The notes below the pieces were generated by a model, which worked only from the letters and a program-made list of their open reading frames with translations, did not search any database and had not been told where the DNA came from. The position numbers were made by a program, and so were the translations under genes. A DNA stretch of 64,000 nt. It comes from an uncultured Tenacibaculum sp. (GTDB taxonomy: Bacteria > Bacteroidota > Bacteroidia > Flavobacteriales > Flavobacteriaceae). Below, one piece after another: positions 22,226-24,664 of the stretch. The stretch is taken from NCBI GenBank assembly GCA_947492185.1, contig CANLMR010000006.1:148277-212276 (forward strand). The letters run 5' to 3'. How positions within the stretch are numbered: the first letter of the stretch is position 1; every line of letters begins with the position of its first letter.

Positions 22226-22233
22226 TAATTTTG
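22226..22233 (+). promoter_or_regulatory. -7 box TAATTTTG
   Basis: TAnnTTTG consensus upstream of the structured leader. Confidence 0.5.
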
Positions 22234-22246
22234 CCGTTAACCTTTA

Positions 22247-22305
22247 AGATTGATTGGGGAATCAATCTATGAAGTAAGACCAAATAAAAATGAGAGTCAT
22301 AGATT
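22247..22305 (+). promoter_or_regulatory. Structured 5' leader with two alternative stems
   Basis: AGATTGATT/AATCAATCT (22247-22255/22260-22268) versus AATCTATGA/TCATAGATT (22264-22272/22297-22305). Confidence 0.5.
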
Positions 22306-22328
22306 TTTGATCTTTGGCTGGGGGAAAA

Positions 22329-24200
22329 ATGAAAAATAAACTTTTACTACTAGCATTTGCTATTTCTTTAGTAGCAAGTGCGCAACAATACACCTACGGT
22401 ATTTATTTTCCTGATGGGGACAGAGAAAATAAATGTAATACGTTTACTAAGGTTTTTAAACAAAAACCTAGCTACGTAAGATTTGGTGTGCGCTTAGAAG
22501 ATAACAAGCTATATTTTGAGGTAAACAATAAAAGTTGGTACAACGCTTTATTTAAAGAAAAAGGCGATGGTATTGCAGTAGATATTGTTAGAAGAAAACG
22601 TTATTCTTGTGACAAAGAAGTAAAATCCTCACAAATACGAGGTGTACTTTTACCTCCTGTTTATGAAATAAATAAACCAGGAAAACTAAAAAGTACTGGA
22701 CGAAATAGATATCGTGTTTATATCGGTAAGGTTCCTCTTAACCTTCAAAAAGAGGAGATCGAGTTCAATTTATTGTTTTTACATAACAAAACATTTTGTA
22801 AATATTATACTATTTATAACCTAGAAAAATACCCAAGAGAATTATTGGATATGGGAGTATACTTAGATGACATTACTTATAAAAACAAAAAAATAACTTC
22901 TAATAAAAACAATATTGTAACGAAATACAAAAAGTTAACGTTTTCAATTCCGTTTGAAAAAGATAAATGGGAATATAAGCCAGAAGATATCAAACCCCTT
23001 TACGATTCTTTAAAGCTTACCGATTATAACATTAAAAAAATTAACATTAATGCATATGCATCTGTAGAGGGGAGTTCTGAAAGAAATTTTATTTTACAAA
23101 AGCAACGTGCAAAAAGTATTGCTGGATCTTTGCAATCTTTTCAAGAGCCTAGCATTATTACGAAAATAGCTACTTCTGAGAATTGGGTAGATTTTTTTAA
23201 TGACATCAAAAAAACAAAACATAAAAAACTAGTTACTTTACCAAAGAAAAAAGTAAAATCTAAATTGATTCATGAATACGCTACTAACTTAGAACCTATC
23301 CTAAGAAATCACAGAAAAGCGGTTGTGGTATTATCTTTAGAAAAGAAAGATGAATATAAAAAATTTCATATTGATCAACTTGTAACACTTTTTAATAAAG
23401 CAGTTAAAGCCGACAAAATAGAAGAAGCTTGCGCTATTCAAAATTCAATTTTAGATAGACTTCGTGATAAATTCAAACCACATGTATTGAAAAACATGAA
23501 GATTCCAAAAAGCAAAAGATACCTAAGATTACTTACTAAAAATTGTATCTTCAAGTACTTTGTTGATTTAAGACAAACTTTAAACGTTGAAAAAGAATTA
23601 CTGCAACTTGAAAAACTAGAACCAAATGATAAACGTTTAAAATACAATTTAGCTGTATTAAAATTTATTATTTGGAAGCATAAAGTTAGAAAAATAAACA
23701 GAGATCAGTTTAAAAAAGAGATTTTAAACTTAAAAGAGTACGGGGTTTCTAAAGAGCTTATTAACAAAATGATTGTTAATTACCATATTATTAAAGCAGA
23801 AGAAGATTTAAGAAAAAATGATTATGACGGCAAAGACAGCTCTGTTGGTTATGTTCTAAAATCATATCAAGATTTAGTGCTTTCAGATTTTGATTATTTA
23901 AGTATTGCTCAGTTCTTTACATATTATTCAAGCATTTATGATGCAATTAATACAATTGAAGACAAAGTAAACGATATTACTGTTGATGAAGATTTATTAT
24001 TCTATTACTTAAATCTAACGATTACAAAAGAAGAATTAACAAGTAATGAAACTTATAGAACAGTAATGTTAAATGCTATAAACATGAACAAAAAACGTTT
24101 TTGTTCTTTATACAATTCTGCATTAAAAAAAGGAGTCACTTTTCAGTTGTTAGAAGATGAATACTTAAGAACTACTTACTGTGAAAATTGTAGTAAGTAA
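22329..24200 (+). CDS. Secreted protein with OmpA-like segment
   Basis: Signal peptide MKNKLLLLAFAISLVASAQQ; INAYASVEGSSERNFILQKQRAKSI. ATG 22329 preferred over TTG 22314. Confidence 0.7.
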   Translation: MKNKLLLLAFAISLVASAQQYTYGIYFPDGDRENKCNTFTKVFKQKPSYVRFGVRLEDNKLYFEVNNKSWYNALFKEKGDGIAVDIVRRKRYSCDKEVKSSQIRGVLLPPVYEINKPGKLKSTGRNRYRVYIGKVPLNLQKEEIEFNLLFLHNKTFCKYYTIYNLEKYPRELLDMGVYLDDITYKNKKITSNKNNIVTKYKKLTFSIPFEKDKWEYKPEDIKPLYDSLKLTDYNIKKININAYASVEGSSERNFILQKQRAKSIAGSLQSFQEPSIITKIATSENWVDFFNDIKKTKHKKLVTLPKKKVKSKLIHEYATNLEPILRNHRKAVVVLSLEKKDEYKKFHIDQLVTLFNKAVKADKIEEACAIQNSILDRLRDKFKPHVLKNMKIPKSKRYLRLLTKNCIFKYFVDLRQTLNVEKELLQLEKLEPNDKRLKYNLAVLKFIIWKHKVRKINRDQFKKEILNLKEYGVSKELINKMIVNYHIIKAEEDLRKNDYDGKDSSVGYVLKSYQDLVLSDFDYLSIAQFFTYYSSIYDAINTIEDKVNDITVDEDLLFYYLNLTITKEELTSNETYRTVMLNAINMNKKRFCSLYNSALKKGVTFQLLEDEYLRTTYCENCSK

Positions 24201-24211
24201 TTTTTGAAAAT

Positions 24212-24664
24212 TTATTTAAACTGATTAGCTATTTCTTCAAAGAAAGGGAAATAATATTCAGGTAAATACGATCCACTTTTTCTTCCAAATTCAGCACCAG
24301 TATCATCTATAAACAAAATAGTAGGAAAAGAAGATTGCCCATATTTTTCGCTTAATTGCTTATTAATTTCTCTATTTTCCTTAGAAACTAAATCTTTATT
24401 CATAGGGAAATCTGCCATATATAAAACTAAATTCTCATCAGAAAATTTTTTAAATTTTTCAGTATGAAATAAGCTTCTATCTAAGTTTATACAAGGACCA
24501 CACCAATCTGATCCTGTAAAATACACTAAAATAGGCTTGTTTTCTTCTTTGGATTTTTTAATAGCTGTTTCCAAAGTAGGTTGCCAATTGATATGAATGG
24601 TTTCTTGAGCTAACACTGAAGAAATCGAAAAAAATAATACTACAGAAAGCAAAAAGTGTTTCAT
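24212..24664 (-). CDS. Secreted thioredoxin-family protein
   Basis: Signal peptide; FTGSDWCGPCINL active site. Confidence 0.92.
   Translation of the reverse strand: MKHFLLSVVLFFSISSVLAQETIHINWQPTLETAIKKSKEENKPILVYFTGSDWCGPCINLDRSLFHTEKFKKFSDENLVLYMADFPMNKDLVSKENREINKQLSEKYGQSSFPTILFIDDTGAEFGRKSGSYLPEYYFPFFEEIANQFK

Follow-up and report, generated by a model that had tools for sequence, protein, structure and literature searches.

Two-site leaders of the CsrA/RsmA type present G-rich motifs on paired hairpins, with one motif near the start codon. In Staphylococcus aureus, the RNAIII targets rot and coa carry G-rich loops that are bound by C-rich loops of the small RNA (PMC2837412), and in E. 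coli, elements of the ompA 5' UTR are known to stabilise the mRNA (PMC2777011). Structured 5' regions, Flavo-1 RNA (RF01705) among them, have also been described in the Flavobacteriaceae (PMC9723704), a family in which post-transcriptional control is little understood. In Flavobacteriales, sequences resembling a Shine-Dalgarno (SD) site are reportedly selected against, SD pairing is rare, and the anti-SD is sequestered (PMC9976891).

Here we describe a structured leader in the genome of an uncultured Tenacibaculum sp.; the window, as the term is used below, is the whole stretch of 64,000 nucleotides that was analysed. The -7 box, stem A, stem B, the GGGGG tract, and the ATG all lie where the initial annotation had placed them (Table 1). 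The -7 box is of the TAnnTTTG type, the sigma-A consensus that a mapped flavobacterium carries at -12 to -5 (PMC9723704), and from its position we infer a transcription start at about 22238. The resulting leader of about 91 nt is long, because 5' UTRs of F. psychrophilum have a median length of 24 nt (PMC9723704). The TTTTGNCGTT context of the box is kept in four orthologous loci of 88-92% identity and in L005, and is degenerate in L006. Two upstream ORFs in the window leader, ATGAAGTAA and ATGAGAGTC..., were rejected; they have no counterpart in L055, L005, or L006.

Table 1. Features of the leader and its gene, in window coordinates.
Feature	Position	Strand	Sequence and basis
-7 promoter box (TAnnTTTG type)	22226-22233	+	TAATTTTG; read directly from the sequence
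5' untranslated leader (inferred), about 91 nt	22238-22328	+	interval between the -7 box and ATG 22329
HP1 (stem A of the initial annotation), 9 bp	22247-22268	+	AGATTGATT-GGGG-AATCAATCT
First GGGG tract	22256-22259	+	HP1 loop; lies 3' of HP1 in L005, L006, and L056
Stem B	22264-22305	+	AATCTATGA (22264-22272) with TCATAGATT (22297-22305); perfect pairing in the window sequence
HP2	22295-22319	+	AGTCATAGAT/ATCTTTGGCT, 22295-22304 with 22310-22319; 10-bp frame, one internal mismatch
Second G tract, GGGGG	22320-22324	+	-9 to -5 of the start codon
Gene for a 623-aa secreted OmpA-like protein	22329-24200	+	signal-peptide-like N-terminus

The downstream gene had been described as encoding an OmpA-like secreted protein. 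Its start does resemble a signal peptide; the OmpA label is fair but weak, because the match to Pfam OmpA, over residues 219-272, scores 18.7 bits and falls below the 27.2 cut-off, and matches to OmpA-like domains in the PDB are likewise weak. Orthologues of 48-60% identity occur across the Flavobacteriaceae (Polaribacter, Winogradskyella, Tamlana, and others; L057, L058, L007, L094-L127), and orthologues share invariant cysteines near the C-terminus, which form part of a CENC motif in the window protein. A second BLAST match, L002, shares signal-peptide similarity only and was set aside. The gene is flanked by manC and by a thioredoxin-like/lpxK-like cluster. On the opposite strand, at 24212-24664 of the window, lies a gene for a thioredoxin-like secreted protein related to DsbH, with an NCBIfam score of 90.6 bits that stays below the cut-off; this gene adjoins the OmpA-like gene in L056, is separated from it by one gene in L053 and L006, and is missing between the OmpA-like and lpxK-like genes in L004, L054, and L055. 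The orthologue occupies other genomic positions in L057, L007, and L010. Unrelated ORFs take the place of manC upstream in L054 and L055, where promoter and leader still accompany the gene.

Relatives were drawn from a genus set of 168 genomes, in which Polaribacter and Tenacibaculum stand under one genus label; the close relatives are Tenacibaculum (e.g., T. skagerrakense DSM 14836, strain M341). An orthologue at E <= 1e-100 is present in 32 of the 168 genomes and reaches at least 71% identity in eight, the window's own genome included. All eight carry the leader before this gene, conserved as a unit, and it is absent from genus orthologues of at most 60% identity wherever the leader was read; six further loci (L079-L084) have no recognisable leader. 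Flavobacteriaceae orthologues of at most 60% identity with a readable start are all without the leader as well, and none has a GGGG within 100 nt of that start. A covariance model, R1, built from the five closest leaders, scores 35-111 bits over the eight (27.7 bits for one interrupted by a contig end), including 41 bits for L005 and 35 bits for L006, both outside the model-building set. R1 found no second convincing copy in the genus set or in the window's own genome, and because it convincingly matches these leaders alone, we regard the leader as specific to one gene and one clade. Weak extra matches (contig C7 of the same genome, L085, L086, and L088) are unrelated terminator-like hairpins.

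Simpler patterns gave a similar picture. Of 30 inspected genome-wide matches to TTGGGG-N-ATG, most lie away from gene starts. At C1:136609 in the same genome (L025), a GGGGG stands 4 nt before an ATG that may start a glutamine-synthetase-like ORF; it is, besides the leader, the only start-proximal match of those 30 to combine a long ORF with a stop immediately upstream. For spaced double-GGGG patterns, this leader alone fits as a leader, the remaining matches having been viewed without detail. No Rfam family reaches its gathering score on the leader (best TEG147, 23.6 bits versus 56.1 needed). The leader is thus a genuine conserved RNA element of modest scope that is absent from Rfam.

Its minimum free energy fold consists of two hairpins, HP1 and HP2, at -20.7 kcal/mol, more stable than shuffled sequence (z -2.4). 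The pairing of HP1 is preserved in relatives, with 97.8% of cells paired and compensatory A-U/G-C, G-C/A-U, and U-A/A-U changes at three pairs. HP2, which the initial annotation overlooked, covers nearly all of the 3' arm of stem B, is preserved by evolution, and ends directly beside the second G tract. It shows double-sided pair changes at two positions in the five closest leaders and at four across all eight; in L006 its helix is shifted but intact, kept via a bulge. In L005, HP2 is capped by C(UUCG)G, a classic RNA tetraloop, which points to HP2 acting as RNA rather than DNA. In the five-row alignment, 93.7% of HP1 and HP2 cells are paired, compared with 87.5% in shuffles, and five pairs are changed on both sides; the covariation score of 0.337 (0.189 in shuffles) was reached by none of 500 shuffles, and all measures collapse when pairing partners are slid by one to three columns. 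The eight-row alignment gives the same result. These counts come from seven distinct full sequences of one clade, related rows that represent few evolutionary events, and the alignments include sequences used to derive the structure, so that pair counts are biased towards it. Because the structure was derived from these same, related sequences, we grade maintenance of both hairpins by compensatory change below proven, as strongly supported by the alignments. Compensatory helices thus stand before orthologous genes, as in a conserved cis-acting leader RNA, and the structured leader of about 90 nt that had been proposed is borne out as an element under selection. In the window leader, HP1 and HP2 both lack a trailing U tract, which excludes an intrinsic terminator or attenuator.

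The first GGGG is present in 8/8 leaders. Five of them have it within the HP1 loop and the other three on the 3' side of HP1, so the tract was retained while the surrounding hairpin was remodelled; in the five closest leaders it is predicted to be unpaired (0.97-1.0). The second, correctly reported as a G-rich tract at the ribosome site, has an invariant GGGG in all eight, with weak, non-conserved pairings predicted in several species. No CCCC or C-rich partner for either tract exists within the leader. Because SD pairing is rare and avoided in flavobacteria (PMC9976891), a G tract in this position needs another reason. Its predicted pairing with a 16S tail amounts to -5.7 to -8.4 kcal/mol; a generic tail was used here, since a pattern search did not locate the 3' terminus of the host's 16S. 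An SD-dependent leader of the rpsU type pairs at below -13 kcal/mol (PMC9976891), a value that these energies do not reach. Given such weak pairing and the avoidance of SD sites, the second tract is unlikely to be an ordinary ribosome-binding site.

The initial annotation read the leader as a translational switch or thermosensor in which stems A and B exclude each other and gate the ribosome site. The coexistence of two perfect 9-bp stems is indeed beyond chance: none of 3000 dinucleotide shuffles of the 91-nt leader contained such a pair, and when the window is cut into 1421 tiles of 91 nt, one tile holds an overlapping perfect pair, a tile that may be the leader itself. The switch was staked on homologous leaders preserving both pairings, and they preserve stem A but not stem B. 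Stem B is broken in L053, L054, L004, and L055, has no matching helix in L005 or L006, and shows 66.7% of cells paired with covariation no higher than in shuffles; when the corresponding regions of the remaining leaders are paired as well as possible, they do no better than shuffled sequence. Enforcing it yields -12.6 instead of -20.7 kcal/mol, a cost of 8.1 kcal/mol at 37 C, stem B is predicted to pair with a probability of about 1e-5 at 4-37 C, and the start region lies outside it. A further alternative, in which the 3' arm of HP1 pairs with the 5' arm or loop of HP2, was also rejected, relatives being no better than shuffles. As for temperature, no conserved sequestration of the start region was predicted, the unpaired fractions at 4-45 C shifting little and inconsistently. 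Stem B is therefore a coincidental or unused pairing, and because it is broken in relatives and energetically disfavoured, a switch or thermosensor is unsupported and, in our estimation, very improbable. The original observation was right, as was half of the proposed structure; the switch was wrong.

Other explanations keep the two hairpins and differ in what they ask of them. HP1 and HP2 could stabilise the 5' end in the manner of E. coli ompA, shielding a highly expressed envelope-protein mRNA without sensing anything, with the GGGG tracts serving loop stability or ribosome contacts. With HP1 at about +10, close to the inferred 5' end, and HP2 shortly before the initiation region, the layout fits this reading, as do arms that drift in sequence while their pairing is conserved and the precedent of the ompA elements (PMC2777011); it leaves unexplained why GGGG is retained in 8/8 leaders, even outside the HP1 loop, and we think it unlikely, if well short of far-fetched. 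Binding of a small molecule or ion at the GGGG tracts would be in keeping with two conserved helices, invariant unpaired Gs, and an expression platform near the start. A riboswitch is nevertheless improbable for an element so small and simple, in which few unpaired positions are invariant and no alternative fold is conserved. No Rfam family reaches its gathering score on it, and it is tied to a single gene whose other orthologues are without it. We give equally little credence to HP1 being a DNA operator for a dimeric transcription regulator. A near-perfect inverted repeat just past the start site, spanning about +10 to +31, is what such an operator would look like, and symmetrical changes would preserve its palindrome, but the half-site sequence differs between species while the pairing is kept, and HP2, with its unrelated sequence and its UUCG loop in L005, would go unexplained. 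The genome also holds no second copy of the element, in a model search that is blind to isolated half-sites.

Most likely, the leader serves translational control or mRNA stability, its unpaired GGGG tracts being putative docking sites for a trans-acting factor. We propose, with a probability of roughly 0.4, a cis-acting leader in which both GGGG tracts are recognised by a putative factor that tunes synthesis of the OmpA-like protein; the factor and the role are suggested by the hairpin structure and by the tracts kept across relatives. In the transcript, HP1 would form close to the 5' end and HP2 immediately ahead of the initiation region, so that one unpaired GGGG would be displayed on or beside HP1 and the other between HP2 and the AUG. 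Both sites may be read together, either by an RNA that exposes a C-rich loop or by an RNA-binding protein. HP1 would then serve as the anchor. With the AUG-proximal GGGG occupied, 30S loading would be prevented (or favoured), which would tune protein synthesis at the level of translation or mRNA decay.

This proposal makes sense of several results at once: eight leaders recognised by R1 beside eight close orthologues, covariation of both hairpins beyond shuffles, G tracts kept in every leader without a CCCC to pair with, the RNA-like loop of L005, and the persistence of promoter and leader with the gene in L054 and L055. It would also account for a G tract at -9 to -5 in a group where SD pairing is rare (PMC9976891). 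Several points weigh against it. CsrA (PF02599), Hfq, and the RbpB-type RRM_1 (PF00076) were not found in this genome, although the controls, from Bacteroides for RRM_1, were positive; the element is single-copy and tied to one gene, so no regulon points to a regulator. The relocation of the first GGGG relative to HP1 in three leaders, the weak pairings predicted for the second tract, and the few evolutionary events behind the covariation also count against it. A stronger version, in which the tandem-hairpin GGGG pair is read by an RNA or protein as a new form of translational control, in a bacterium whose class of ribosomes ignores SD sequences and in whose genome none of Hfq, CsrA, and RRM proteins was found, we consider possible but doubtful. 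Although so far confined to a single gene of one clade, a leader that covaries and places a G tract beside the start codon offers a compact handle for finding the factor that acts there, in a genome where the usual RNA-binding regulators were not found.

Among described systems, the two-site leaders of CsrA/RsmA are similar in their paired hairpins and G-rich motifs, one of them start-proximal; they differ in motif, which is ANGGA there and GGGG here, and in depending on a protein that this genome appears to lack. Flavo-1 RNA comes from the same family and is likewise a structured 5' leader (PMC9723704), but has no match in our leader even at E <= 5. The E. coli ompA 5' UTR combines a 5'-end hairpin with structure before the ribosome site on an envelope-protein mRNA (PMC2777011), and differs in having no sequence relation to our leader and no GGGG tracts; Hfq was not found in the present genome. 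The RNAIII targets, in turn, belong to another phylum and have a true SD at the ribosome site, and a partner RNA for our leader would be putative. The resemblance to them is one of layout only: they too carry a G-rich hairpin loop and, apart from it, a G-rich ribosome site (PMC2837412).
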